From: Cyanobacteria bacterium FACHB-471
GTDB lineage: Bacteria > Cyanobacteriota > Cyanobacteriia > Elainellales > Elainellaceae
Length of the DNA stretch: 36,826 nucleotides
Direction: 5' to 3'
Assembly (NCBI GenBank): GCA_014695345.1
Contig: JACJOC010000100.1
Span: forward strand, 1-36,826
In this document: piece after piece, positions 8,607 to 36,440 of the stretch
Position numbering within the stretch: position 1 is the first letter of the stretch
Layout: every line of letters begins with the position of its first letter
The notes under the pieces: generated by a model
The model's input: only the letters and a program-made list of their open reading frames with translations
Told to the model about the DNA's origin: nothing
Databases searched by the model: none
Made by a program: the position numbers and the translations under genes

Positions 8607-10487
8607 CTAATCTTGAGAATTGGTATTAGACGCAACCGTACAGCCCGCATTCGCTTGAGAATCAGACTCAGGTGGCACTAACCCAACCACATGAGGTACA
8701 GGGCGGGGCGTATAGCCCACTAATGACTCGCCCCGATAAGCCAGAGAAGTGCTTGCTCCAGAGTCGAGCATGACCGCATCCTGAAGCCCTGACTGGTACA
8801 GCATTTCGCCCAGCGAGATGGAATCGACGTAAGAAGTGGACACCCCAATTACAGGTTGTCCATCCTGGCTGATTCCCCAAAAAGCTCGGTGTCGTCTGGC
8901 ATCAAAATCAAACAGGCTACCAAAAGTACTGGCAGGCTGAGGCTCACCGTCTTTGACCAACCACGCCGCTGCCACAAAGGCATCGGTGACATCCGCCATT
9001 TCAGCCTGAATGCCTTCCAGAGTGTTATGTTTGTCCGCGTCAAAGGGAACGAAACGCACCTGAGTTGAACTGATTAGCACGAGCGGTCGTCCGTTTAGCA
9101 GCGGATTCTCACTCGCGTTTCCAGGAACGAAAACGCCTACGCTCTGGCTCAGGACGGGACCGACCATCACGTTTGAGTCGAGATATTTGAGTGAGAAGAA
9201 GCCTCCATCTACAGCAGCGGCAACTTCGCTGTCGGCAATAATTTCCTCAACCTGATAGCGGCTATCAGCATGAATCGTGACAGGCTTGCCGCCAGAAATG
9301 AGAATCAACGGCACATCGTCGTAGGTGACTTCGTTCACCTGGATGGGAGCATCAAAGTCAAACGCGGTTCCCCATCTTCGAGGTGAAGGTCCGCCCCACG
9401 CATCAGCAATCACCTCTTCGATTTGCGATTGCCCAATTCGGTCGATGGTCAGCAGATTGGTGGACTCTCCTGCCATCAAATTTTCTTCATCGTTCATGGT
9501 CAAAGCCGCTTCGAATCCGGCTTTGCGAACTTCCCCAGCAACTCGCGCATCGTACTTGCCTTCGGGGTAAGTGAAATAGCGGATCGGGATGCCCAACTGT
9601 TCCTGTAGAATCCGGCGAGACTCGACAACTTCCTGGGTCAACGTCTCATCTGACAGGTCGCGCAGGTCGGGTGGGTGCATAACGCTATGGGCGGAGATCG
9701 TCACTAGCGGATCTGCTGCCATTTCCTTTAGCTGCTCCCAGGTTAGTCCGGGTCTGCCGTAGTCGCGGCTAACTTTATGCGTATAGACGGAAAATAAACC
9801 GGGATAGCCGTATTCTCTCAGCAGCGGCAGAACGTAGTCGTAGTGACCCTTGTAGCCGTCATCAAAGGTCAGCAAAACGGGCTTTTCGGGCAACGGCAAA
9901 CCCGTTCGCAGATGTGCCACCAGTTGATCCATACTGACAGGCGTTAGCCCATTCTCTTTGATTAATTCCAGATGTTCTCGAAATTCCTCTGGGGTGACAT
10001 CAAAAAATACCTCTTTTTCAGGCAGAATGTCGTGATACATCAGGATCGGCACTCTGGCTAACCGGGCACGCTGATGAATTTCAGGCCAAGCCGCAGGGGT
10101 CAGTTGTGCGGCTAACTGAGGTCCAAAGCTCTGTAAGATTGCGCCCAAACCGCTTTCTGGCTCCTCCATCCAGGTTGCAGCCTGCATTAGGTTTTGAGTC
10201 AGGTCACTAATTTGCAGGGCAGAGCGGTTAGGTTGCAGGGAACAAGCTTGCTCAGGCAATAGTTTGGTTTCATCTTCAAGGGCTTCGTCATCCAGGCTTG
10301 TACTGGGGAGTTGAGCAGTACGAAGCAGTTCCCCCTTTGGGGTAATCGCCCCCTGCGAAAGAGTAGCAGCATTAGACGAAAACCCCAGAGGAGTCAAAAT
10401 GACTGCAAGGCTAAGGATCAGGCTGCGGTTCAGGAACTTAATCGTTTTGCAGCGGCGCAACAGAGAATCCCGATCAATCGGCATCAT
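8607..10487 (-). CDS. Exported polysaccharide deacetylase fused to phosphodiester glycosidase (NAGPA-like) domain
   Basis: A 626-residue protein. Residues about 18-41 look like a signal peptide or anchor (LILSLAVILTPLGFSSNA). A NodB-type deacetylase domain spans about 145-330: ILMYHDIL at 148, TFDDGY at 207-212, metal-binding histidines H267 and H271 (HSVMH), and YPEGKYD near 308. The C-terminal part (about 375-615) resembles the phosphodiester glycosidase / DUF2233 domain: AAAVDGGFF, then MLDSGASTSL and PVPHVVGLVP near the end. It probably remodels a cell-surface or extracellular glycan, removing N-acetyl groups and perhaps cleaving sugar phosphodiesters. No neighbouring glycan genes specify the substrate. 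Confidence 0.85.
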   Translation of the reverse strand: MMPIDRDSLLRRCKTIKFLNRSLILSLAVILTPLGFSSNAATLSQGAITPKGELLRTAQLPSTSLDDEALEDETKLLPEQACSLQPNRSALQISDLTQNLMQAATWMEEPESGLGAILQSFGPQLAAQLTPAAWPEIHQRARLARVPILMYHDILPEKEVFFDVTPEEFREHLELIKENGLTPVSMDQLVAHLRTGLPLPEKPVLLTFDDGYKGHYDYVLPLLREYGYPGLFSVYTHKVSRDYGRPGLTWEQLKEMAADPLVTISAHSVMHPPDLRDLSDETLTQEVVESRRILQEQLGIPIRYFTYPEGKYDARVAGEVRKAGFEAALTMNDEENLMAGESTNLLTIDRIGQSQIEEVIADAWGGPSPRRWGTAFDFDAPIQVNEVTYDDVPLILISGGKPVTIHADSRYQVEEIIADSEVAAAVDGGFFSLKYLDSNVMVGPVLSQSVGVFVPGNASENPLLNGRPLVLISSTQVRFVPFDADKHNTLEGIQAEMADVTDAFVAAAWLVKDGEPQPASTFGSLFDFDARRHRAFWGISQDGQPVIGVSTSYVDSISLGEMLYQSGLQDAVMLDSGASTSLAYRGESLVGYTPRPVPHVVGLVPPESDSQANAGCTVASNTNSQD

Positions 10488-10650
10488 ACGAGTCTTAAAG
10501 ATCTACGGGTATCGTTGTTAGGTTTAACCGATTTTCTCAACTTTCTCAGGTTTTGTAGGTGACACTGACCCAAGAAATTAGAAACTTTATAGAACTTACG
10601 TCAGAATACAGCAGATTCGGGATAGGAATTATGGTCTTTCAAGGTACACC

Positions 10651-14943: not shown

Positions 14944-16236
14944 ATGAAGCTACTTCACCCAGTTAAGACCCTGTTGGACTGGCTACCAGACCTAAAGCGG
15001 GAAGTTTGGCTTTTGGCAGCAGGTCAACTGCTGCTGTTCATTGGGCATGGCTTTACCCTGGTCTACACCTCCATCTATTTCGTCAACACGTTAGGCTTCT
15101 CCCCCACCCAGGTTGGACTGGCGCTAGGAAGCGGAGGTATTTCCGGTACTTTAGGGCGATTTTGGGCGGGTAATGCAATTGATTCTGAGGGATTGGGGCG
15201 GCGAGGCACTTTGCTGATTGCAGCGGTCATTGCTGCACTAGGTAGCTTTTCTTTAGCCTTTGCCAGTACCTTCCCTCTGCTGGTCGTAGGGAACCTGCTG
15301 CTGGGCTTAGGCATTAGCCTCTACTGGCCTGCGACTCTGTCCATCACAACAGACCTTACTCCAACGGAACATCGCACTGAAGCGATCGCCCTCACTCGGC
15401 TAGCAGACAATCTTGGGTTGGGATTGGGGGCATTGTTGGCAGGACAATACTTGGCAATGGAAGGGAGTTATGGAGCACTCTTCATCTGCAAAGGATTAGC
15501 CTACCTGGTGTTTGGCGGAGTAGTCGCCTGGGCGATCGCTGAAACTCGTCAGCCTCACACAGATTCTCTCAATGTGCTGCAAAGCTGGGGTCAGGCGTTG
15601 CGCGATCGCCGCTTGCTCACCTATCTTGCTGCCAATGTGTTCTTCACCACCTATGCGGCTCAACTGAGCAGCACGCTGCCTTTGTATCTGGCAAACTTTG
15701 TGCCCTGGGGCAATACCGAGACGGGCTTTTCTGAAGCATTCATCAGCTATTTCTTTGTTTGGCACGCCCTGCTGAAAATTGTGCTGCAATTACCGGTGAC
15801 CCGCTGGCTGTGGTCAGTTCCTTATGTCCCAATTTTGTTCGGGTCGCTCGTGTTGTGGGCTGCCGGATTTTTCTTGATATGGCTGGTGGGGCTAGGAAGC
15901 ATCAATCCACTGATACTGATCTTGCTGTCCTTTGCCTGCATTGCGATCGCAGAGGTACTCTATGCACCTTCAGCATCGGCTTTGGTAGGAGAATTGGCTC
16001 CTGTGACACTACGGGGTATCTACTTTGCTCTGGAGTCTCAGTGCTGGGCGATCGGTTATTTGGTAGGTCCTATCTTGGGTGGATGGGCTTTGGATCATCC
16101 TGTTTGGTTAGGCACTAACTTTTGGTTAGCTCTAGTTCTCACTTCTGCCATTTCGGGTTTGTTCTTGTTGCTATTGCGATCGCAGTTAACCAGCAGTGAG
16201 CCTGCTCAGGAAGCTACACCCTCTAGCAGTTCCTAG
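14944..16236 (+). CDS. MFS transporter
   Basis: A 430-residue protein with about 12 hydrophobic segments and the layout of the major facilitator superfamily. Loop 2-3 has GRFWAGNAIDSEGLGRRG, which corresponds to motif A (GxLaDrxGrr). The helix 4-5 region has GLGISLYWPATLSITTDLTP, as in drug/efflux-type MFS proteins, and a long central loop lies near residue 205. The substrate cannot be read. The start is ATG 14944. It is convergent with the DUF4278 gene. Confidence 0.88.
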   Translation: MKLLHPVKTLLDWLPDLKREVWLLAAGQLLLFIGHGFTLVYTSIYFVNTLGFSPTQVGLALGSGGISGTLGRFWAGNAIDSEGLGRRGTLLIAAVIAALGSFSLAFASTFPLLVVGNLLLGLGISLYWPATLSITTDLTPTEHRTEAIALTRLADNLGLGLGALLAGQYLAMEGSYGALFICKGLAYLVFGGVVAWAIAETRQPHTDSLNVLQSWGQALRDRRLLTYLAANVFFTTYAAQLSSTLPLYLANFVPWGNTETGFSEAFISYFFVWHALLKIVLQLPVTRWLWSVPYVPILFGSLVLWAAGFFLIWLVGLGSINPLILILLSFACIAIAEVLYAPSASALVGELAPVTLRGIYFALESQCWAIGYLVGPILGGWALDHPVWLGTNFWLALVLTSAISGLFLLLLRSQLTSSEPAQEATPSSSS

Positions 16237-24926: not shown

Positions 24927-25003
24927 TTTGTGTTCACACAGCAATAGAGCCAACTTTGTGAGTTAGCTAATTAACCTAAGAGCAGTTGAAATCGTTATTG
25001 ATA

Positions 25004-25297: not shown

Positions 25298-26803
25298 ATG
25301 GCATCAAATACCGTTGCTCAACAGCGTGAACAACAGGAAAAGACTCTCAAGCGATTCATCGTTTACAGTCTTGCGGGATCACTCACCCTGCATGTGATTG
25401 GACTGTTCTTGAAAGTCGATAATTTCTGGAAGCCAGCTCAGGCAGCACAAGAAGAAATCACTATTGTTGTGACCGAGCCTGCCGAGGAAGAAGTCGTAGA
25501 GACAATTCCGTTAGAAGAGCAGAGTGAAGCGATCGCTGAGTCAGAATTTGCAGCGTCTGGTGGCGGTGGTGGGGGCGGTGGCGCAGGAGCCGCATCGATC
25601 ATAGAAGCCCCTCCAGCCTCTGCAATTCCGCCTGAAGAGCCCACTGCTGAAGAGGAACCAGAACCTACCCCTACGCCAATCGCTGAAGATATTGAAGAAC
25701 CCGTTGAAGAAGAACCCGTTGAAGAGGAACTAGAAGACCCAGTCGCTGAACAGGATGAAACCGAACAGGCTGAGAACGTTGCTGAAGCAACCGAGCCACG
25801 CGACCTGAGTAACCTCCTGGGAGATTTGCGGCAGGCTCGTGAGCAGGCAAGACGAACTGCAAATAGCGGATCTAATACGGGTAACCCGCTTGGAAATATT
25901 TTTGGGGGAGGTGATGGCTCCTCAACTACGGCAGTTGGTCCTGGTCGAGGAACGGGCTCGGGCTCAGGTTCGGGCTCAGGGATAGGTTCGGGAACTGGCT
26001 CAGGAACTGGCTCGGGAACTGGCTCGGGAACTGGTTCGGGAACAGGGATAGGTTCGGGAACAGGTTCTGGAGAGAGCGATCGCTCCCGTCGAAATGGCGG
26101 ATCTCGTGAGGTTAGTTGCCAAGGTTGCGACTTTGACTATCCAGAGAGTGCTGACGGGGCAGAAGGATCGGCTCAGGTAGTGGTTGAAACTGACGACCAA
26201 GGGAGAGTTGTCTCGGTAACACTCTCCCGCTCTAGTGGCAATGCCGAACTTGACCGTGCCGCTATAGAACAAGCACGACGGCGAGTCCGATTGAGCAATA
26301 CCAGAGCGGGAGAAAGCTACCCTCTGGATATTGAATTTGTGCAGCCAAACTCTGAAGCGGCGCAACGGGCAGAAGAAAGGGGCGATCGCCGCAGTATCAC
26401 AATTTCCGACCCAGAGCCAGAGCCTACCGAAGCTGCTGAAACGAGTCCCGCCGAAACCCCTGAATCGGCAAGCAGCCCATCCCCAGAGCCGGAACCTTCT
26501 CCAGGCGAGGAACCTTCTTTAGGCGAGGAACCTTCTACCCCAGAACCGGAATCTTCTAGTAGTCCCGAACCAACACCAAGTCCTGCTGAAACTCCAGAAC
26601 CCGAGACAGTAGATAATTCTGACACGGTAGAACCAATAGAAGAACCAGCAGCAGAACCAGTTGCAGAACCCGCACCAGAACCTGACCCTGCACCTGCTCC
26701 CCCACCCGCACCTGCGCCTGACCCTGCACCTGCTCCCCCGCCAGAACCTGCCCCTGCCCCTGCGCCTGCGCCTGCCCCTGCCCCAGTTCCTTCAGAGCCA
26801 TAG
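25298..26803 (+). CDS. tonB: TonB-like energy transducer with extended C-terminal tail
   Basis: 501 residues. A cytoplasmic N-terminus leads to one membrane anchor (about 19-39). A Glu/Pro-rich periplasmic spacer (110-170) follows, then a Gly-Ser-Thr repeat of SGTG units (about 217-258). A TonB C-terminal domain spans about 270-350: CQGCDFDYPESADG, SAQVVVETDDQGRVVSVTLS, GNAELDRAAIEQARRRV. Unusually, about 150 residues of Pro/Glu/Ala repeats (PAPAPAP) extend beyond that domain. TonB carries energy from ExbB-ExbD to outer-membrane siderophore receptors. The divergent exbB-exbD genes support this; no receptor gene is in the window. Confidence 0.85.
   Translation: MASNTVAQQREQQEKTLKRFIVYSLAGSLTLHVIGLFLKVDNFWKPAQAAQEEITIVVTEPAEEEVVETIPLEEQSEAIAESEFAASGGGGGGGGAGAASIIEAPPASAIPPEEPTAEEEPEPTPTPIAEDIEEPVEEEPVEEELEDPVAEQDETEQAENVAEATEPRDLSNLLGDLRQAREQARRTANSGSNTGNPLGNIFGGGDGSSTTAVGPGRGTGSGSGSGSGIGSGTGSGTGSGTGSGTGSGTGIGSGTGSGESDRSRRNGGSREVSCQGCDFDYPESADGAEGSAQVVVETDDQGRVVSVTLSRSSGNAELDRAAIEQARRRVRLSNTRAGESYPLDIEFVQPNSEAAQRAEERGDRRSITISDPEPEPTEAAETSPAETPESASSPSPEPEPSPGEEPSLGEEPSTPEPESSSSPEPTPSPAETPEPETVDNSDTVEPIEEPAAEPVAEPAPEPDPAPAPPPAPAPDPAPAPPPEPAPAPAPAPAPAPVPSEP
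25950..26070 (+). repeat. 12-bp low-complexity repeat encoding SGTG units
   Basis: GGAACTGGCTCG and close variants recur in tandem inside tonB and encode the Gly-Ser-Thr spacer. The repeat is likely to vary in copy number between strains. Confidence 0.85.
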
Positions 26804-26971: not shown

Positions 26972-29926
26972 TCATTCAGCAGTTTGTCTACGAGCCAACT
27001 GAGCAAACAATCCTGGCTGATTTGCCAGCTCTTCAAATTTCCCCTGTTGCACAACCCGTCCGGCTTGCATGACATAAATGCGATCGGCATAACGAATGGT
27101 GCTGAGACGGTGAGCAATGACAACACGAGTAACTTTGAGTTGATCTAAGCTCTGACTCACGATCGCCTGTGTCTTATTGTCGAGAGCGCTTGTAGCCTCG
27201 TCAAACAGTAGAATTTGAGGCTTTAGAGCTAATGCACGGGCAATCACCAGTCGTTGTCGTTGTCCACCGGAGAGGTTCGTTCCGCCTTCACTGACAAGCG
27301 TATGCATCTGCATGGGCATGGCTCTCACATCCTCTGCAAATCCACTCATTTCCGCCGCAGTCCACGCTTCATCCAAAGTGATTAGGGCACCGCTGGCAAT
27401 GTTTTCAAAAATTGAGCCCGCGTTAATTCGGCTATTTTGCAACACTACACCCAACTGACGGCGCACGGCCATCACATCCAGTCCCATCAAATCTTGTCCG
27501 TCATAGTAGATTGTGCCAGAGATAGGCGTTTCAAAGCCTAGCAACAGTCGCATGACGGTTGATTTGCCGCTGCCTGATGGTCCAACTAGTGCAATAAATT
27601 CACCTGGTTGGGCAGAGATACAAACACTATCAAGGTTGAGGGGTCCATCTTCGCGATAGCGGAAGGATATATGGTCAATTTGAACGCTACCAGATAGCCG
27701 CCCTGGGTTAGCTTTGTTGAGGTCAATTTCGGGTTCAGCAGTTAAGATAGATTGCGATCGCTGCCACAGTGGAATCACATCCAACACTTCAATTAATGTA
27801 TTGCTGAGACTGGTGATTCCTCCAATAAACGTGCCAAACGCAACGCTAAACGCCAGAAAAGATCCGGTTGATAGCCCACTGCCGCTGCCAAAGGACTGAG
27901 TTGGATCAATCAAAGTGCTGGCTAACCCAAATAGCATCACTGTCGTGAGAGTTGGCAGCACCGTGTTGAACAACACAACCATGTCTTCCAAACGCTGTGT
28001 GCTGGCTAAAAGCTGAAGCTGTTTCACATATTTTTGTCCCCAATGGGCAAAAGCGCGTTCTTCAACTCCGGCAATTCGCAGCTTAGGAACCGCACTGATG
28101 AGTTGCACCATCAACCCAAAAAGGTCACCTTCAAGCTCCATTAAAGGGCGATTTTTGCGAATGATCAGGGAACCAGAGATGGTGGTAAAAGTGATAATTA
28201 CTGCGGCTAACACTAGTGCCAGAGTTGCCAGTCTAGAACTGTAGTAAAACAACAGTCCCAAATTCAACAGCGAGAAAAACCCGGCAAAGATACTTTGTAA
28301 GGCAGTACCACTAAGCTTGCGCCGAATCGCACCAATGCCAGACACGCGTGAGTTTAAATCACCGATGGAATATTCTCGAAAAAAGGAGGTTTTTAGCTTG
28401 AGTAAACGATCCCAGACAGCGGCTTGTAGAGATGCATCGGATAGGGTTTCAATTCGCATGGAGGCGATCGCCTGCGCCAGTTGAAAGCTTGCCCCACCAA
28501 AGGCGGCCGCTAGTAGCCCTAACCCAGTCTGCACCAGTAAACCTGAGTTGCCATAGGGAATCGCATTATCAATTAAAACGGCTGTAGCCTGTGGCACCAG
28601 CATTCCTAACAACGTTGCAGCTACGCCCGTCAGCAGAATCGCAATCACATCGGACGTGCGCCCTTGCAACGTGAATTTGAGCAAACTAATGGCATTCAAC
28701 ACGCCATCAGGCAAGGGTCTGTAGAAAACAAACGCAACGGGATCGATAGTCTGTGCAACAGCCTGATCGACTGGAACTCTAGCAGAGGCAGATTTAGAAC
28801 CCTTCGTCGTTGAAACATCGGCTTCAGCTAAACCTGTCCATGCCGGATCAAACAGTTCGTACTGGGCATTTCCAACGGGCAACAGTGCGACAGGTCGTTT
28901 ATCCTCAACGGTGTAAGCCAGAAGTGGTCCGCTATCCATCTTCCACCAGTTGTTTCGCAGCAAAACTCGCCGCAAACGTAAGCGAGAAGAACGGGCGATC
29001 GCCTCCAAAGGTTCCTTTAATCGCTTCAGATCTTCCGATCTAGCAGGTGGCTGAATGGTTACTCCCAGTGCCTTACCCACTGCTCCTGCTGCAATTAACA
29101 AAGAAGTATCTGCCTCAAAAAAACTCTCTGTCCTGGGATGTAACACTGACGCAAGCTGATGGATCGTTTGCTGCGTCAGTTGTCGGTTAAGCTGCTGCCT
29201 TGCCTCAAATCGAGCTAACGTTTGCTGAGTCTCGTGTTCTCCAATCAGTTCAACAGAACAGAGAAAATAGTGATGCAGTTGAGCCAGCCCCTTTAGCAAA
29301 ATATCCCAACTTTCAACCTCGGCTGTGCCTCTAGAAAACAGTTCAAGGTGATCGGCTGCTTCTAACCAGGCTCCATTTCCAATAGGAAAACAGCCTGTTT
29401 CTGGATCTAAAACCAGGTCTGAATGACCCAACCAGAGCATCTTTCCTTGCTGGACTCTCACCCACAGGACCTGGTCGGGAGAAGGCTGAAATATTTGCCC
29501 TTCCATCAGGGAAAGGTATTGCATATCAGGAGTAATTCCAGCGGCCTTTGGCTGAGTTAGCCCCTCCACTTGACCAAGTTTGTGAACCCAGTTGTCGAGG
29601 AGGAAGTGGGGATCGGGGATTGAAGACTGGGAGAGTACGGGAGTGGGAGGGTATGGAATTGGCAGAAGCTCTGTAGGTTCGAGCGGAACTGCGATGATGC
29701 CGAGTGAGTTACAGTCTGGACGAGATGCAATGCCAAAAAGAGCTTCACCGGGGTAAATGTTGAATAGGTAGTGACGATCGCCCTCTGCCTCACCATTTTT
29801 GATTGGCACCGCAAACAGTGCCAAAGAGCCTGACTGAACCAGCCAAACCGTTTGAGGGTCATTTAATAACAGGGGTTGATTGCCTGTAATTTGGTGCAAA
29901 CTTGTGTCAATCTGCTGTAGCTTCAT
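26972..29926 (-). CDS. NHLM-type bacteriocin export ABC transporter, second (permease/ATPase) subunit
   Basis: 984 residues from ATG 29926, preceded by GGAGG and overlapping the peptidase-transporter stop by 4 nt (ATGA). The N-terminal 370 residues are soluble, as in the NHLM ABC2 family (LVQSGSLALFAVP near the start), with no C39 catalytic motif. Then come a six-helix exporter membrane domain (about 400-680) and an ATPase domain with Walker A GPSGSGKST, signature [10 protein letters not shown], Walker B ILLFDEATSALD and H-loop VIAHRLSTIR. It probably pairs with the upstream transporter to export processed peptides. Confidence 0.9.
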   Translation of the reverse strand: MKLQQIDTSLHQITGNQPLLLNDPQTVWLVQSGSLALFAVPIKNGEAEGDRHYLFNIYPGEALFGIASRPDCNSLGIIAVPLEPTELLPIPYPPTPVLSQSSIPDPHFLLDNWVHKLGQVEGLTQPKAAGITPDMQYLSLMEGQIFQPSPDQVLWVRVQQGKMLWLGHSDLVLDPETGCFPIGNGAWLEAADHLELFSRGTAEVESWDILLKGLAQLHHYFLCSVELIGEHETQQTLARFEARQQLNRQLTQQTIHQLASVLHPRTESFFEADTSLLIAAGAVGKALGVTIQPPARSEDLKRLKEPLEAIARSSRLRLRRVLLRNNWWKMDSGPLLAYTVEDKRPVALLPVGNAQYELFDPAWTGLAEADVSTTKGSKSASARVPVDQAVAQTIDPVAFVFYRPLPDGVLNAISLLKFTLQGRTSDVIAILLTGVAATLLGMLVPQATAVLIDNAIPYGNSGLLVQTGLGLLAAAFGGASFQLAQAIASMRIETLSDASLQAAVWDRLLKLKTSFFREYSIGDLNSRVSGIGAIRRKLSGTALQSIFAGFFSLLNLGLLFYYSSRLATLALVLAAVIITFTTISGSLIIRKNRPLMELEGDLFGLMVQLISAVPKLRIAGVEERAFAHWGQKYVKQLQLLASTQRLEDMVVLFNTVLPTLTTVMLFGLASTLIDPTQSFGSGSGLSTGSFLAFSVAFGTFIGGITSLSNTLIEVLDVIPLWQRSQSILTAEPEIDLNKANPGRLSGSVQIDHISFRYREDGPLNLDSVCISAQPGEFIALVGPSGSGKSTVMRLLLGFETPISGTIYYDGQDLMGLDVMAVRRQLGVVLQNSRINAGSIFENIASGALITLDEAWTAAEMSGFAEDVRAMPMQMHTLVSEGGTNLSGGQRQRLVIARALALKPQILLFDEATSALDNKTQAIVSQSLDQLKVTRVVIAHRLSTIRYADRIYVMQAGRVVQQGKFEELANQPGLFAQLARRQTAE

Positions 29927-32154
29927 GAGGCACCCTCCGCGTTGCGAATGAGTTGAGCATAATGTCCAGGTTGTTGCCACAGTTCTTCATGGGTACCCCG
30001 TTGCACAACCTTGCCGCGTTCTAAAACAATAATTTCGTCAGAGTCCCGAATGGTGCTTAACCGATGCGCCACAATCAAACAGGTACAGCCCCGTTGCCGC
30101 AATTTTTGGTCAATCATTTTCTCGGTTTCTGTATCCAGGGCACTGGTGGCTTCATCCATAATCAGAATTGACGGATTGTTGATTAGCGCTCTAGCAATCT
30201 CAAGTCGCTGTCGCTGTCCACCACTTAAATTCACCGCACCCTCTAACAGTTGAGCATCATAGCCACCAGGAATCGAGAGGATCACTTCGTGAATTGCTGC
30301 ATCCTGACAAGCTCGGTGCAAGGCGCGATCGGGAACTGTGGTATCCCACAGGGTTAAGTTCTCGCGAATGGTGCCTGCAAATAGGAGAATATCCTGTTCT
30401 ACAACTGCGATCGAATTGGTGAGTACAGAACGGGAAATATCATTTCTAGCAACTCCGTCAAACCGGATTTCTCCTGACCAGGCATCATAGAGTCCAGCAA
30501 TTACTTTAGCGAGGGTTGACTTACCAGAGCCACTTCCTCCTACGAAAGCAATTCGCTGTCCCGGCTTAATAGAAAGGTTGAAATTTTCAATCAGCGGCGG
30601 TTCAAGCGGACTGTAGCCGAAGGTAAGGTCTTTTAGATCAATGTAACCGTGCAGACGAGGAGAAAAGGGTGAAGGATGAAGGATGAGGGATGAAGGGGGA
30701 GGGGGGGAATCTTGTTCTTGTAACTGGGGATCAACCTCGTTAGTTAATACGTCGTCCAGGCGCTGTAGGTTCCCCTGTAAGGTTTGCAGAGTGCTGCCAA
30801 ATTGGACGAGACGATTGACGGGTTGCTGAAAGCTTTGCATCAGAAGTTGGAAGGCGACTAACATACCAATACTTAAACTGCCGTTGATCACGCGCCATCC
30901 ACCGATCATCAGGAGTGAGGCTGCTGTGAGTGCCGAAAGGAGAGTAGGCAGTAATCCTAAAACGCGGTTGATTAAACCTAACTCTTGCTGAGCGTTGATT
31001 GCCTTAGTGTAATACCCCACCCAACGAGCAAAAAAGTCTGACTCTAAGCCAGAAGCTTTGAGCGTTTCCATACTCTGTAAGCCTGCGATCGCAATTCCCG
31101 ATGCTTTGCCGTATTCCTGCACCAGTCGCAGGTTGGCATCGACGCGCTGACGCGATACCCACTGTAATGTGAGTACATTCACAACGGCAAAGAAAATCAC
31201 AATCAGAGTTAAGACAACGTCGTATTGGAACATGGCGATCGCAAAAAAGACCACCATGAAGGCGCTGATGACGGTAATCGTCAGACGACCCGACATTACA
31301 TCTGCTACATCATCATTGAGTCGAATTCGGTTGCTGATCTCTCCGGCAAACCGCTGTGCATAAAAGCTGACGGGTAAACGTAAAACGTGCCAGACAAATC
31401 GACTGGATAAACTCACCGATAGCTTAATCTTTAAGCCACGCAAATACCGTAGCTGCAACAGAGTAAGCAAGCCCTGAAGACATATCGTGATCATCATGCC
31501 AAACAATAAGTAAGGCAACCACTCGGGTCGGTTGCCCATCAGGACATTGTCCACAAAGATCTGGCTAAAGGCAGGAATCACCAGACTTGGCAGCACCAGT
31601 AAAAAGCTTGCCAGGATGCAGTAGAGCAATGCCCCAACCGAATTGCGGAGACGGCTTCCTAATGCCAAAGTGAGACTGGGTTTTTGTCCCCCTGGCTGAA
31701 ATTCTTCGCTCGGCTCCATCACCAGAACGACCCCGGTGTATCCTTCATCGAATTCCTGATAGGAAACCCTTCTAGGTCCGACAGCTGGATCATTCAGATA
31801 AACTCGGTCTTTGTCAAACCCTTCAACCACTAAAAAGTGATTGAAGTGCCAGAAAACAATAAAAGGAAAACGTAGTTGTGACAGGCTTTCTAGTGACTTC
31901 TTAAAACCTTTGGCAACCATGCCATAGTTTCTGGCCGCCTTAAGGACGTTGGCGGCTGTCACCCCATCTCGCGAAACACCACAGGCTTGTCGTAGCTCTG
32001 CCAACGGCACAATTCGGTTGTAATAGCCTAAGACAATTCCTAAAGCCGCAGCCCCGCACTCAACGGCTTCCATCTGTAAAACTGTGGGTGTTTTGACTCG
32101 GCTCTTTTGCCCCTTTAGTGACTGTTGCAGAGAGGCTAAAGGGTTGATAAACAT
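29923..32154 (-). CDS. NHLM-type bacteriocin export ABC transporter with C39 peptidase domain
   Basis: A 743-residue peptidase-containing exporter. The C39 domain (residues 20-145) has Q27, catalytic C33 (QMEAVECGAAALG), H106 (HFNHFLVVEGF) and D122 (YLNDPAVGPRRV), which cleaves leader peptides after double glycine. Six membrane helices follow, then an ATPase with [24 protein letters not shown] and ILIMDEATSALD. It cleaves and exports a precursor peptide; the divergent two-site peptide at 34115 is the obvious substrate. The start overlaps the HlyD-like gene stop by one base (TGATG). Confidence 0.93.
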   Translation of the reverse strand: MFINPLASLQQSLKGQKSRVKTPTVLQMEAVECGAAALGIVLGYYNRIVPLAELRQACGVSRDGVTAANVLKAARNYGMVAKGFKKSLESLSQLRFPFIVFWHFNHFLVVEGFDKDRVYLNDPAVGPRRVSYQEFDEGYTGVVLVMEPSEEFQPGGQKPSLTLALGSRLRNSVGALLYCILASFLLVLPSLVIPAFSQIFVDNVLMGNRPEWLPYLLFGMMITICLQGLLTLLQLRYLRGLKIKLSVSLSSRFVWHVLRLPVSFYAQRFAGEISNRIRLNDDVADVMSGRLTITVISAFMVVFFAIAMFQYDVVLTLIVIFFAVVNVLTLQWVSRQRVDANLRLVQEYGKASGIAIAGLQSMETLKASGLESDFFARWVGYYTKAINAQQELGLINRVLGLLPTLLSALTAASLLMIGGWRVINGSLSIGMLVAFQLLMQSFQQPVNRLVQFGSTLQTLQGNLQRLDDVLTNEVDPQLQEQDSPPPPSSLILHPSPFSPRLHGYIDLKDLTFGYSPLEPPLIENFNLSIKPGQRIAFVGGSGSGKSTLAKVIAGLYDAWSGEIRFDGVARNDISRSVLTNSIAVVEQDILLFAGTIRENLTLWDTTVPDRALHRACQDAAIHEVILSIPGGYDAQLLEGAVNLSGGQRQRLEIARALINNPSILIMDEATSALDTETEKMIDQKLRQRGCTCLIVAHRLSTIRDSDEIIVLERGKVVQRGTHEELWQQPGHYAQLIRNAEGAS

Positions 32155-32756
32155 CAGTGAGACACCTCAAGAAATGGAAATACAAAGGTGATGGGTGCTT
32201 TTTCTGCTAGGGTGATGCGGGCGATCGCACTCATTCCAGGAGCCAGTGTTAACCGTGTACCTCGTGCAGAAGACCATCGATAGCCGCTTGCAGTGGCAGG
32301 ATCGGGTTCCAGTTCAGCAACGACTTCTACTAAATTTTCTTGATCCGCAATGCCGGATTGACGAGCCGCATCTAAAGTGGTGACAGATGGTTCTGAAACA
32401 GATTTAATCCGGGCAACCAAGCCGTCGGTTTGTTCAGAGCCGATGGTGTCAGGCACCAGCATAATCTCCATTCCAGGTTGAATCTGCTCTGCTTCATCGC
32501 TACCAAAATAGGTTAAACCTACCAGTTCATTAGAGGATTGGGTTGGGTGAACGAGGATTCCTTTACCCACTGCGGTAATTGGAATCCGTCCAAAGAAACC
32601 CCAAACCAGCGCCAACGCCATCAAGGAAGCCAGAGATGCCAGAGGTAGCCAACTCTTAGGGCTAACAACCTGCATCAGTTGATCTAACTGCTCTGGAGAA
32701 GATAATCGCTCCAGGGACTCCTTTCTAAAAATGCTGGTTTTTGACTGCTCACTCAT
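32154..32756 (-). CDS. Short NHLM-type HlyD-like secretion protein, coiled coil missing
   Basis: 200 residues. The N-terminus (FRKESLERLSSPEQLDQLMQ, VVSPKSWLPL) and a membrane segment at about 35-56 are those of the NHLM HlyD-like family. The C-terminus (NELVGLTYFGSDEAEQIQPGME ... GTRLTLAPGMSAIARITLAEKAPITFVFPFL) is also family-like. Usual members are roughly twice as long and carry a lipoyl half-domain and a coiled-coil hairpin between. Here VGKGILVHP joins almost directly to SSNELVGLTYF near residue 72. It is the membrane-fusion-type partner of the two ABC subunits. Confidence 0.85.
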   Translation of the reverse strand: MSEQSKTSIFRKESLERLSSPEQLDQLMQVVSPKSWLPLASLASLMALALVWGFFGRIPITAVGKGILVHPTQSSNELVGLTYFGSDEAEQIQPGMEIMLVPDTIGSEQTDGLVARIKSVSEPSVTTLDAARQSGIADQENLVEVVAELEPDPATASGYRWSSARGTRLTLAPGMSAIARITLAEKAPITFVFPFLEVSH

Positions 32757-32790: not shown

Positions 32791-33879
32791 TTAAGTTACA
32801 CCCAACCGTTTCAACATCCAATTAAATCGAGCCGCCCCTTGAGAAACCTGTTGCAACGAATCAAGGTCTAGCTCATCCTCATATTCAACGTCTTCATCCA
32901 TCTCCTGATGCTGACTGTAGTTGCTCTTATTGCAGCCCAGACGACTCATCACGGTTTGCAGACTATTAGAAAGTTGAAGGGCAAGGACTCGGTAAAAGCG
33001 AGAAGCAAAACTCATGTCTTGCTGAAGTTTGACAGCAAGTACCTGACGAGGAATAGATAAGACAAGAGAGTGATTGACTGCTCTAACCGTAACCGCTGGG
33101 GGGCGAAAATCTACAAAAGAGCTAGCGCCACTAATTTCACCCCGAGTTAGGTTAGCGATCGCCTTCTCACGAGGAGCCTTCCCCTGACCTTTAAAGCAAA
33201 GGGTGAGAGGGTTATAATCTCCTTCGGGAGAGGAAATCAGTAGAAGACCATCCAGAATGAAATACAGCGCCTCAACGGGTCTACCGGCTTGGAGTAAGAC
33301 TTCATTCGGGGAAAGGCTTTTGATTTCACCCACGGCAACCAACCAGTCTGCATCACTATCCCGAAGCTCTCCAAACACAAAGAGAGCTTCTTTCATCGGT
33401 TGTTCGGTGATGGCTTGCACCTGACCTGGCATCTCGAAGATTTGCCGCAGCCGTTCAGAGAGCATCAGGGCGATCGCCCGATAAAAATGGGTACTAAAGT
33501 TAATGTCCTGTTCTAGTTTGTCTATTAACCGTTGCCGAGGAATTGCCAGTACTAACGAATTCACATCTGCTTTAACAATTGCTGGCATAAAACATAAATC
33601 AAATAAGGATGTTTCACCCACAATCTCGCCGCGTGATAAACGAGTAATTTCTCGATCCTGACAATCACTCTCTGCAACAGTTACAACATGATCGGTAGAA
33701 GTACTTTTAGCGTTGGGAATTACGATCGTTAACGCTCCATCTAACAACAGATAAATCACCTCTGGATCTCTGCAAAGCTGGACAAGCACAGTTCCGGCGT
33801 TGATCTGCTCTTGACGACCCGCAGCGATCATCCAATTAATGTCGGCGTTGCTTAATTCGCTGAGTAAGACTTCTGCCAT
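32791..33879 (-). CDS. Bacteriocin-type transport-associated protein, tandem cNMP-like domains
   Basis: 362 residues with two cyclic-nucleotide-binding-like domains (about 1-150 and 170-315) and a C-terminal acidic linker plus SQGAARFNWMLKRLG motif. The cassette positions read GEIVGETSLFDLCFMPAIVKA and GEISGASSFVDFRPPAVTVRA; the phosphate-binding Arg expected in a PRxA-type segment is not obvious in either, so nucleotide binding may be lost. The architecture matches the cNMP-domain protein that accompanies NHLM export genes. It leads the export operon, 34 nt before the HlyD-like gene. The role is unknown, perhaps sensing or assembling the exporter. Confidence 0.85.
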   Translation of the reverse strand: MAEVLLSELSNADINWMIAAGRQEQINAGTVLVQLCRDPEVIYLLLDGALTIVIPNAKSTSTDHVVTVAESDCQDREITRLSRGEIVGETSLFDLCFMPAIVKADVNSLVLAIPRQRLIDKLEQDINFSTHFYRAIALMLSERLRQIFEMPGQVQAITEQPMKEALFVFGELRDSDADWLVAVGEIKSLSPNEVLLQAGRPVEALYFILDGLLLISSPEGDYNPLTLCFKGQGKAPREKAIANLTRGEISGASSFVDFRPPAVTVRAVNHSLVLSIPRQVLAVKLQQDMSFASRFYRVLALQLSNSLQTVMSRLGCNKSNYSQHQEMDEDVEYEDELDLDSLQQVSQGAARFNWMLKRLGVT

Positions 33880-34005: not shown

Positions 34006-34114
34006 ACAAGCCTTCAGTGTTTGAGGGTTTCGGGCTACTCTAGAGAAGTGATGAGAGAGCTTGAATTGATTGCAGCTCTCACCAGTCATTTCCCTAACTG
34101 GAGGACATATCCTA

Positions 34115-34333
34115 ATGAGTCAGCAAGAACCCAAAAAAGAAGAGCAGCTTTCAGATACAGAACTAGAAGGTGTGTCCGGTGGACTGACACAGCGGTTTGA
34201 AGATGCTCGCCTAGAGAATCTGGACAAAGGACTTCAACCTGAAGGAGAACTGTCCGAAGATCAGTTGAAAACTGTTGCAGGTGGATTGAACGAGCGATTT
34301 GAAGATGCTCGTCAGGAAAACTTGGACAGCTAG
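34115..34333 (+). CDS. Candidate exported peptide precursor with two double-glycine sites and two repeated cores
   Basis: 72 residues from ATG 34115, with GGAGG about 10 nt upstream. The leader ends in LSDTELEGVSGG (GG at 22-23), followed by core 1, LTQRFEDARLENLD. A second leader-like stretch ELSEDQLKTVAGG (GG at 56-57) follows, then core 2, LNERFEDARQENLDS, at the C-terminus. The two units are 34 residues apart. Between the cores there are about six synonymous and four nonsynonymous codon changes, so the protein repeat is older than its DNA repeat. There is no Cys and almost no Ser/Thr in the cores. C39 cleavage by the neighbouring exporter is inferred. I do not recognise the family. Confidence 0.75.
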   Translation: MSQQEPKKEEQLSDTELEGVSGGLTQRFEDARLENLDKGLQPEGELSEDQLKTVAGGLNERFEDARQENLDS

Positions 34334-34605: not shown

Positions 34606-35943
34606 ATGACTGCTGAAGAAGCATTGGAGATAATAGAACAAATTTTGCCTCCAGGTAGTTTAACCGCTGCACAGGAGTTAGTATTTCGGCGATCTTGGCT
34701 GGGTGAAGAATATCCTGCGATCGCCCGTGAAGCTGGATATGACTATAGTTATATCCGAGATATTGGCGCACAACTGTGGCGATCGCTCTCCAAAGCCTTG
34801 AAAGAACCCGTTAAGAAGAAAAACTTTCGCGCCTTATTGCAACAGCGGTTCAATCTGCAACCGTTGCATTTGAAGCAGGCGATTGCTCCTAATCTAACTG
34901 TGCTTTCTGATATTCCCGAGTTTCCTGGAGGTGCAGTACGACTTCACTCCCAGTTCTATATTGAACATCCTGCTATTCAAGCAAAAGCTTATGCAGAAAT
35001 CGGCAAATCAGGAAGCTTATTGCGAATCAAAGCCTCCCAAAGAATGGGAAAAAGTTCCCTTTTGCTTCGCATCATTGACCAGGCTAAAACCCTGAATTAC
35101 AATACGGTTAACCTGGACTTTAAGCAAACCGATAGTGATATCTTTTCCAGCCTGGATCGGTTTCTCCGGTGGTTTTGTATCCATGTAAGTCAGCAATTAG
35201 GGATAGAGCCCCGGTTAAATCAATATTGGCAAAAGGAAGCGGGTAGCAAGGCGAGCTGTACGCTTTACTGGACACGATATCTTCTGAGTCAATTAAACGC
35301 CCCTCTACTCCTGAGCTTTAACGACTTTGATTTTATCCTGACAGAGCATCCCAAACTTGCCTGGGAGTTTCTCATGTTGCTCCAGTCCTGGCACGAAGAA
35401 GCCAGACAGTCCAACGTTTTGCAAAAGCTGCGACTGGTGATAGTTCACTCCACTGATATTCACATTTCTCCGCAGCTAAGCGTATCTTCGCTCAACATGA
35501 TCGGGTATCCTATTGAGCTACCAGAGCTTAATTTGTCACAAGTGCAAACCCTGGCTCAAAAATATGGCTTAAACTGGGAAACCCCTAATTCAGCTCAAGA
35601 GTTAATTGATATGGTCGGAGGGCACCCTTACCTGCTGCAACTGGCGCTCTATCACCTCTGGACAGGAAATGTAACCCTTGATCAGCTTTTGCAGGAAGCT
35701 CCTACGCTGACTGGCATATACAGCGATCATCTGCAAAGCCTTTTAGTCACCTTACAGTCTTGTCTGGACTTATCCAAGGGACTTGACCAAATTATCAAGG
35801 ATGGTCAGACTACCCAAGTGAAGGTAGCCGCCAAACTAGAGAAGCTAGGACTGATCAAGCGGCAGGGTAATTTGCTCAAGCTTAGGTGCAAACTCTATCA
35901 CCTTTACTTTAGCGACCATTTGTCTCTCTTTTGCCTTTCTTGA
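34606..35943 (+). CDS. AAA-like domain (AAA_35 type) ATPase with N-terminal HTH-like domain
   Basis: 445 residues. The N-terminal 90 residues (MTAEEALEIIEQILPPGSLT, AAQELVFRRSWLG, YPAIAREAGYDYSYIRDIGA) resemble the helix-turn-helix-like head of such cyanobacterial proteins. The ATPase domain begins at about FPGGAVRLHSQFYIEHPAIQ and has Walker A SQRMGKSS near 145. The Walker B strand reads LLLSFNDFDFIL where AAA_35 proteins usually have an acidic DE-type pair, so hydrolysis may be altered. The C-terminal part holds GGHPYLLQLALY, as in signalling NTPases. The function is unknown. No clear ribosome binding site is visible. Confidence 0.8.
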   Translation: MTAEEALEIIEQILPPGSLTAAQELVFRRSWLGEEYPAIAREAGYDYSYIRDIGAQLWRSLSKALKEPVKKKNFRALLQQRFNLQPLHLKQAIAPNLTVLSDIPEFPGGAVRLHSQFYIEHPAIQAKAYAEIGKSGSLLRIKASQRMGKSSLLLRIIDQAKTLNYNTVNLDFKQTDSDIFSSLDRFLRWFCIHVSQQLGIEPRLNQYWQKEAGSKASCTLYWTRYLLSQLNAPLLLSFNDFDFILTEHPKLAWEFLMLLQSWHEEARQSNVLQKLRLVIVHSTDIHISPQLSVSSLNMIGYPIELPELNLSQVQTLAQKYGLNWETPNSAQELIDMVGGHPYLLQLALYHLWTGNVTLDQLLQEAPTLTGIYSDHLQSLLVTLQSCLDLSKGLDQIIKDGQTTQVKVAAKLEKLGLIKRQGNLLKLRCKLYHLYFSDHLSLFCLS

Positions 35944-36099: not shown

Positions 36100-36256
36100 A
36101 ATCTCGTTGACGTATGTCGATCCCTCTCTCCGTGAGAGTTTCGACAAATTTAAGCAGGCTTGATTCTCAATTAGATCTGCTAACTGACCATCAAGTTGAG
36201 GGTGCGTCGATTCGACCGCTGAAACCCAGTCTGGACAATGTTTCCTGGACGAGGGG
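36100..36256 (+). promoter_or_regulatory. Possible CRISPR leader
   Basis: The stretch before the first repeat lacks a plausible gene and carries GGGTGCGTCGATTCGACCGC and CTGAAACCC just before the array. Leader placement on this side agrees with decay of the last repeat at the other end. Confidence 0.4.
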
Positions 36257-36440
36257 GTTTCAAACCCCATTCCCCGCAAGGGGACGGAAACAAGAACTCA
36301 GGACGCTCTTGAAAGATTGTATAACCTTCAGTTTCAAACCCCATTCCCTGCAAGGGGACGGAAACAGGCAGGAATCCTTTGACGTCTTACCCGGTATGTC
36401 GTAGAGTTTCAAACCCCATTCCCCGCAAGGGGACAGAACT
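36257..36440 (+). CRISPR. Small CRISPR array: three 35-nt repeats, two spacers
   Basis: Repeats begin GTTTCAAACCCCATTCCCCG and end GGGGACGGAAAC. They lie at 36257-36291, 36331-36365 (one change in the loop) and 36406-36440 (3' end degenerate: GGGGACAGAACT). Spacers are 36292-36330 (39 nt) and 36366-36405 (40 nt). Each repeat can fold as CCCC-GCAA-GGGG. Decay of the right-hand repeat suggests that end is leader-distal and transcription is plus-strand. No cas gene is visible, so it depends on a cas locus elsewhere or is relict. The spacers have no match that I can judge. Confidence 0.92.

Follow-up and report, generated by a model that had tools for sequence, protein, structure and literature searches.

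A two-module double-glycine precursor and apparently Sec-exported repeat proteins with a matching core in a cyanobacterial family

Introduction

Cyanobacterial double-glycine (GG) peptides are numerous, and most are without known roles. The stretch of DNA analysed here, 36,826 nucleotides of contig JACJOC010000100.1 from Cyanobacteria bacterium FACHB-471 (hereafter the window), raises the question of what one such peptide might be for. Divergent from an NHLM-type export operon lies an ORF of 72 residues in which a leader ending in GG and a core each appear twice. The first-pass annotation of the window recognised the GG precursor and its NHLM link, both of which are well supported, but missed that the layout varies between genomes and that the core has a twin in a second, Sec-type protein family. 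Genomes (G), contigs (C) and loci (L) are cited by number where they need to be told apart.

The precursor gene and the adjacent export operon

The ORF runs from an ATG at 34115 to a stop codon at 34331-34333, and a ribosome-binding-like GGAGG lies ahead of it at 34100-34104. Its product, MSQQEPKKEEQLSDTELEGVSGGLTQRFEDARLENLDKGLQPEGELSEDQLKTVAGGLNERFEDARQENLDS, has GG pairs at residues 22-23 and 56-57, and the cuts predicted after these agree with the 34- and 15-residue products named in the first-pass annotation (Table 1). Among eight aligned precursors, the residues L, S, L, V, G and G of leader 1 and E, L, S, L, V, G and G of leader 2 are invariant. The two cores are identical at 11 of 15 residues, with five of these 11 using the same codon against about 4.4 expected from codon usage. 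Because six of the 10 codons that differ between the cores are synonymous, the earlier description of the differences as mostly synonymous holds, if narrowly. Taken together, sequence comparisons confirm the ORF as a real two-module double-glycine precursor, [leader-core]x2.

The TIGR01847 (bacteriocin_sig) model matches the precursor over two stretches, with 23.2 bits against a cut-off of 15.7. NF038167 ('CTB family bacteriocin') is just reached, at 32.6 bits (32.2 in another scan) against a curated cut-off of 32, and this score is the sum of two stretches, the best of which (residues 45-65, model positions 10-30 of 72) spans leader 2 and the first half of core 2. On this score alone the peptide would pass, narrowly, as a member of the CTB family. 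The earlier view that it belongs to no described family is correct for Pfam, in which no family scores above its cut-off, and fails by that small margin for NF038167. Scores for the NHLP leader (TIGR03793; 19.7 bits against 50.9, from the last 17 model positions alone) and the Nif11-like leader (TIGR03798; 17.6 against 32.3) fall below their cut-offs. A PDB search with an alignment of the GG precursor gave two weak leader matches and nothing more, and the AlphaFold model, two helices predicted with moderate confidence (pLDDT 78, pTM 0.41), does not help in choosing among mechanisms.

A lanthipeptide or other modified product was considered and rejected. The 72 residues include no cysteine, and neither a synthetase nor another modification enzyme was found among the six window proteins scanned, all from about position 25,000 onwards, as had been argued from the sequence at first reading.

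The genes on the opposite strand fit an NHLM export operon, with TIGR03796 and TIGR03797 over their cut-offs and TIGR03794 just under. The best TIGR03794 stretch is the last third of the model. With TIGR03896 also over its cut-off, the C39 exporter, second ABC subunit, HlyD-like protein and cNMP protein named previously are all recovered. The window exporter is the only over-cut-off match to TIGR03796 in the 7.15 Mb genome, and the cNMP and HlyD-like genes are conserved beside the GG genes of other genomes. The domains of the operon agree with the 'group V' arrangement in Wang et al. 2011 (PMC3140520), given in the accessible part of that paper as a short C39 ABC protein, a peptidase-less ABC protein, an HlyD protein and a protein with two CAP_ED (cNMP) domains, with GG precursors nearby. 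The precursors presented there have highly diverse cores, and the same part of the paper describes no repeats, duplications or Sec-exported twin.

An AAA_35 gene adjoins the GG gene in the window and in L009, L070, L071, L072 and, partly, L069. It is not beside the GG gene in L073, L074 or L075, and L010 ends too early to judge.

Several further features of the region were recorded. A 501-residue protein downstream of the exporter (25298-26803) contains long Pro/Glu and Gly/Ser low-complexity stretches. Three direct repeats at 36245-36438, with the core GTTTCAAACCCCATTCCC(C/T)GCAAGGGGAC and a spacing of 74-75 nt, are probably part of a CRISPR array near the window edge. The cNMP gene is intact in the window, but in L009:3104-4185 and L010:8634-9715 it consists of two overlapping ORFs, broken at an identical point.

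Table 1. Locations of features in the window and of related genes at other loci.
Feature	Location	Strand	Description
GG-leader precursor gene	34115..34333	+	72 aa, two leader-core modules; from ORF reading, orthologues at equivalent place, dN/dS
Leader 1	34145..34183	+	residues 11-23; QLSDTELEGVSGG
Core 1	34184..34228	+	residues 24-38; LTQRFEDARLENLDK; matches own-genome Sec repeats
Leader 2	34247..34285	+	residues 45-57; ELSEDQLKTVAGG
Core 2	34286..34330	+	residues 58-72; LNERFEDARQENLDS
cNMP-binding, bacteriocin-type transport-associated protein	32791..33879	-	TIGR03896, 264 bits vs 161; divergent from precursor
HlyD-like adaptor, short (200 aa)	32154..32756	-	TIGR03794-like, 153.8 bits vs cut-off 156.2
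NHLM_micro_ABC1 (C39 peptidase, permease, ATPase)	29923..32154	-	TIGR03796, 1151 bits vs 853
NHLM_micro_ABC2 (permease/ATPase without peptidase)	26972..29980	-	TIGR03797, 968 bits vs 709
AAA_35 (PF14516) NTPase	34606..35943	+	downstream of precursor; link to system uncertain
Sec-linked sensor histidine kinase	L012:5650-9042, L165, L167, L168, L171		
(F/L)AYQ protein	L009:6312-6680, L012:8054-8563, 15777-16184, L163, L171:4314-4703, L182 (G419)		
Second GG family	L249-L258, L263		G417, G413, G392, G393, G402, G401, G390, G399, G395, G411

Orthologues, selection and variable layouts

Close relatives were sought in 84,980 species genomes, and two loci emerged, both in Leptolyngbyaceae MAGs, which by position are the G407 and G406 copies. 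Profile searches extended the orthologues to nine of the 36 family genomes, the window's own included (G000, G406, G407, G412, G402, G394, G397, G388 and G414), and the peptides occur at an equivalent place in other genera. The exporter lies beside the orthologue in eight of these nine genomes; the contig of L071 ends after HlyD. This conserved synteny, together with conservation of both leader segments, bears out the earlier reading of a two-module precursor divergent from an NHLM exporter, and supplies the homologues, with conserved GG and core near exporters, whose absence had been named as grounds for abandoning it. In G414 (L074, G414:C1:1337000-1356500, 9995-10505) the NHLM locus has decayed to cNMP and HlyD fragments, and the GG peptide is reduced to a single core.

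Compared with L009 or with L010, the window gene gives a dN/dS of 0.12, a sign of purifying selection, and in both comparisons leader 2 has a pN of 0.03 and a pS of 0.63. The value between L009 and L010 is 0.49, from 11 changes only. Given the conservation of the leaders, the low dN/dS and the pN and pS of leader 2, both GG sites look to be under selection, as would be expected if the C39 domain reads, and presumably cuts at, both of them.

In a wider sample, the GG profile matched 11 of 386 genomes of the phylum at E<=0.05, and the window's genome and G215 alone at E<=1e-4. The apparent limit of the system to two orders rests on searches of this sample, in which at most 15-17 candidates per genome were scored. 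GG peptides with a window-type core occur in at least seven genomes of the second order, that of G215, with G215 included; the count is a lower bound since these peptides were found with a Sec query. Among the second-order loci bearing a GG gene, four of nine (L075, L216, L221 and L230) show an exporter in the stretch examined.

The two-module layout is one case of a variable design and is not unique to the window. Nine of 10 second-order precursors inspected consist of one leader and two cores, and the precursor of L223 (G466:C334) has two leaders, each with two cores behind it; a further precursor, with a single leader, comes next. In addition, 10 of the 36 family genomes hold a second GG family, whose core is unrelated (mostly GGEDGG...) and whose precursors string together two to four leader-core units. 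Precursors of the beads-on-a-string type, with a C39-type site before each core, are therefore found for at least two core families in the window's order.

A second protein family with the same core

A search of the window's own genome with the GG peptide gave weak matches on two further contigs. The matching sequences are small proteins with an N-terminus like a Sec signal peptide (MKRYILTSLSVLALSAYATPGFA...); Sec signal peptides were judged by eye, with no predictor used, and are described here as apparent. Two of these proteins contain five and three copies of LTDRFDEARRENLDK or a near variant, and two further own-genome Sec proteins contain three copies each of a more divergent unit. The core consensus that recurs in tandem in these small proteins is F-[DE]-x-[AL]-R-x-[ED]-N-L-[DN]-K, with variants, and Sec-type arrays hold two to 12 core copies per protein.

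A profile of the N-terminus and first repeats, followed by reading of the matches, placed Sec-type genes in 18 of the 36 family genomes, G416 among them. Profile matches in G400, G409, G419, G396:C97 and G396:C184 were excluded from the array count; those of G400 cover the signal region only. At L181 (G409:C78, near 59152 and 59470) there are two small proteins with a similar signal peptide and a cysteine-containing mature part (NIDTETCPRNGNFCVGSGGA), possibly another secreted peptide.

At E<=1e-4, the only matches to the Sec profile in the phylum sample of 386 genomes were in the window's genome and G215. When G215-type proteins alone were used to build another profile, the genomes matched at E<=1e-3 were G170, G215 and the window's own (E 3e-11); the idea that G215 alone carries the genes outside the family was dropped because G170, missed by the first profile, has a Sec gene. 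Within the order of G215, the G215 Sec protein matches 38 of 63 genomes at E<=0.05 and 30 at E<=1e-5, and some genomes have dozens of matches; that of G450 is its GG gene only. A phage or plasmid origin was also rejected: no match was found in viral contigs, and one second-order Sec protein had no plasmid match.

The second-order unit reads FD[EQ]LR[RQE]ENL[DE]K. Counted with a pattern in which R and L are fixed and N or R is accepted, eight second-order proteins contain 62 units of the 11-residue core, separated by linkers of 3-16 residues; one further linker, of 18 residues, holds a divergent unit. In these eight proteins no conserved residue pair was found between units that might mark a cut, which makes the release of free peptides from the arrays doubtful. 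The helical moment exceeds that of most shuffles in one of seven units only, and an amphipathic or coiled-coil peptide was accordingly set aside, six of the seven tested units being no more amphipathic than shuffles. A PDB search with one Sec array found no relative at E 0.1.

Correspondence of GG cores and Sec repeats within genomes

The two forms tend to occur together, with Sec genes in eight of nine GG-bearing family genomes versus 10 of the 27 others (Fisher p 0.009, uncorrected for relatedness). In ten of the 36 family genomes there are Sec genes but no GG counterpart. The reverse case, a GG form without a detected Sec form, was seen in G407 (83% complete) and in G450 of the second order (100% complete).

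Each GG core was scored against every 15-residue segment of the Sec proteins of each genome. G406, which belongs to the window's genus, was excluded from the matching, as were G407, which has no Sec gene to pair, and G402:C16, a contig-end fragment like G402:C63. For the eight remaining genomes with both forms, the own-genome pairing is the best of 40320 permutations, and for the seven of these that belong to one order it is the best of 5040. With G406 added, the own pairing ranks first (identity) or second (BLOSUM) of 362880. The permutation was repeated with two added Sec genes; the G406-inclusive run, the controls and the codon comparisons were made without those two.

The leaders, used as a control, do not match the Sec proteins (rank 21455 of 40320), and column-shuffled cores gave p values of 0.06-0.54 in 20 trials. 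When the four longest ORFs at each core's own GG locus took the place of the Sec proteins, the ranks were 764 of 40320 and 137 of 5040, a weak compositional effect, with a statistic of 14 vs 117 for the Sec pairing. When the GG sets were compared with all 18 Sec genomes, the own genome came first for five of eight (one tied) and second or third for three; this ranking omits some genes of Sec-only genomes, for example those of G413 (L163-L165), G411 (L170) and G401 (L172).

Interpretation

It is a little short of an even chance, in our estimate from these sequence patterns, that the system supplies a secreted peptide ligand by two export routes to a common, species-specific partner. In such a mechanism the C39 domain would cut after both GG pairs, freeing a 15-residue peptide (residues 58-72) and a 34-residue peptide (residues 24-57) that still carries leader 2. 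Through the Sec proteins, either intact or cut by proteases, the motif would reach the periplasm or the cell exterior in many copies. Both forms would be read by one species-specific partner, in the simplest case a receptor, and so would have to change together; overall the system would resemble secreted peptide signalling from a multi-copy precursor.

An unlikely alternative is that the products are matrix or surface components, with free GG peptides attaching to Sec arrays, or both to a common scaffold, to build an extracellular layer, own-genome matching then reflecting the assembly of like with like. The arrays, with two to 12 units, are indeed multivalent, the AlphaFold model gives the precursor two helices (pLDDT 78, pTM 0.41), and a mutant of Synechococcus elongatus needs C39-exported GG proteins to form biofilm, according to the accessible part of the report (PMC4997328). 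However, most tested units (six of seven) are no more amphipathic than shuffles, the Sec linkers vary in length, unlike those of a rigid repeat, and the PDB search with an array gave no relative at E 0.1.

It is improbable that the GG peptide is instead a bacteriocin that harms relatives through a surface target, with periplasmic Sec arrays competing for it as decoys and so protecting the producer. A bacteriocin would fit the NHLM-type export and the marginal 'CTB family bacteriocin' match, self-protection would fit the within-genome matching, and the arrays are the commoner form (18 vs 9 of 36 family genomes). Yet the precursor has no cysteine, its cores are charged and hydrophilic, no modification enzyme occurs among the scanned proteins, and ten family genomes have arrays but lack the GG form.

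Another improbable explanation removes any functional link between the two proteins: the matching would be a by-product of old gene conversion, or of the GG gene having taken up Sec repeats time and again. Repeat arrays recombine readily, and codon sharing exceeds expectation. Summed over 18 cores, 94 codons are the same vs 72 expected, in a count that breaks ties toward codon match, takes its expectation from four window genes and lacks one of the four G412 Sec genes (L080). The tie-free rate of same codons at identical residues is 0.449 within the own genome vs 0.390 against other genomes. This excess is modest and partly a product of tie-breaking, and it is nil in G215, where FDQLRRDNLDK is identical in GG and Sec proteins but five of 11 codons are the same against 4.6 expected. 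Since shared codons lie only modestly above background, recent copying explains little, though old copying between GG and Sec genes may be behind part of the sharing. The leaders show no matching, and the GG gene stays by its exporter across genera, keeping a syntenic place, so it has not arisen anew lineage by lineage. It is very improbable that the ORF is an unexported frame, arisen by chance or in decay: decay does occur, as in G414, but the dN/dS of 0.12 against two relatives and the orthologues with intact leaders and exporter argue against it here.

An own-genome excess is not expected from ancient duplication followed by independent drift, and the simplest remaining reason for the matching would be a shared partner or mutual contact.

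Candidate partners

If the two forms are a ligand read by a common partner, its gene might be sought near theirs. Orthologous sensor histidine kinases, 50-84% identical, lie zero to one genes from Sec genes in five genomes, including the window's own. The three Sec-linked kinases that were scanned contain HAMP, HisKA and HATPase domains, and after the kinase of L012 come a response regulator and a pair of RND efflux proteins. The kinase, which adjoins a minority of Sec loci only, is a candidate for the common partner.

A small protein with an (F/L)AYQ motif, often bearing a signal peptide, occurs near the Sec genes of three genomes and near one GG gene; the three examples scanned have no match in Pfam. 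Large WD40-repeat proteins adjoin Sec genes in L154 and L176, the latter locus also holding a weakly STAND-like protein; AAA_35, WD40 and STAND-like proteins lie beside several GG and Sec genes. These proteins are possible sensors. No TPR-type RRNPPA receptor was found among the six window proteins or the ten Sec-locus neighbours scanned.

Relation to known systems and significance

Each half of the system has a precedent in the accessible parts of the literature, in GG/C39 biofilm proteins (PMC4997328) and in Sec-exported pheromones with repeated peptides (PMC11343458). Close to the GG half is EbfG1-4/PteB of Synechococcus elongatus, which shares GG leaders, a C39-type peptidase and small secreted proteins with the window system, and in which the peptidase is needed for efficient secretion (PMC4997328). 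The EbfG proteins differ in being encoded by separate genes with one GG motif each; mature EbfG is said to be without homologues in other cyanobacteria, and the available text mentions no Sec twin (PMC4997328). The Sec arrays resemble the tandem pheromone propeptides of RRNPPA systems, which are small Sec-exported precursors with more than one near-identical copy and less conserved spacers. Those systems, as far as the accessible account goes, belong to Bacillota and have pheromones of 5-10 residues beside an RRNPPA receptor, with no mention of double glycine (PMC11343458).

Precursors with more than one core are also known. Multi-core microviridin precursors carry several cores, but in the part of the source consulted a modifying cyclase acts on these, whereas the window precursor has a leader for each core and no modifying enzyme was seen (PMC5934393). 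The NHLP-Burk fused pairs of some species likewise place two units in one polypeptide; as presented in the available portion of Haft et al. 2010 (PMC2887384), they have a different leader family and are thought to give two-peptide products.

No description of one motif exported by both routes, or of own-genome matching between them, was found in the open-access literature searched. At rather less than even likelihood, it is tentatively proposed that this is an undescribed system in which a C39-processed peptide and Sec arrays with one and the same motif form a co-evolving, species-specific code for a single shared partner, which might be the array-linked kinase.

What the core provides is a handle, in that a second protein family, apparently Sec-exported, changes in step with it between species. 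The matching opens a search for the receptor by co-variation, and the direct question of whether one partner binds both forms. Twin routes that appear to change together among species point to an unstudied secreted peptide system.
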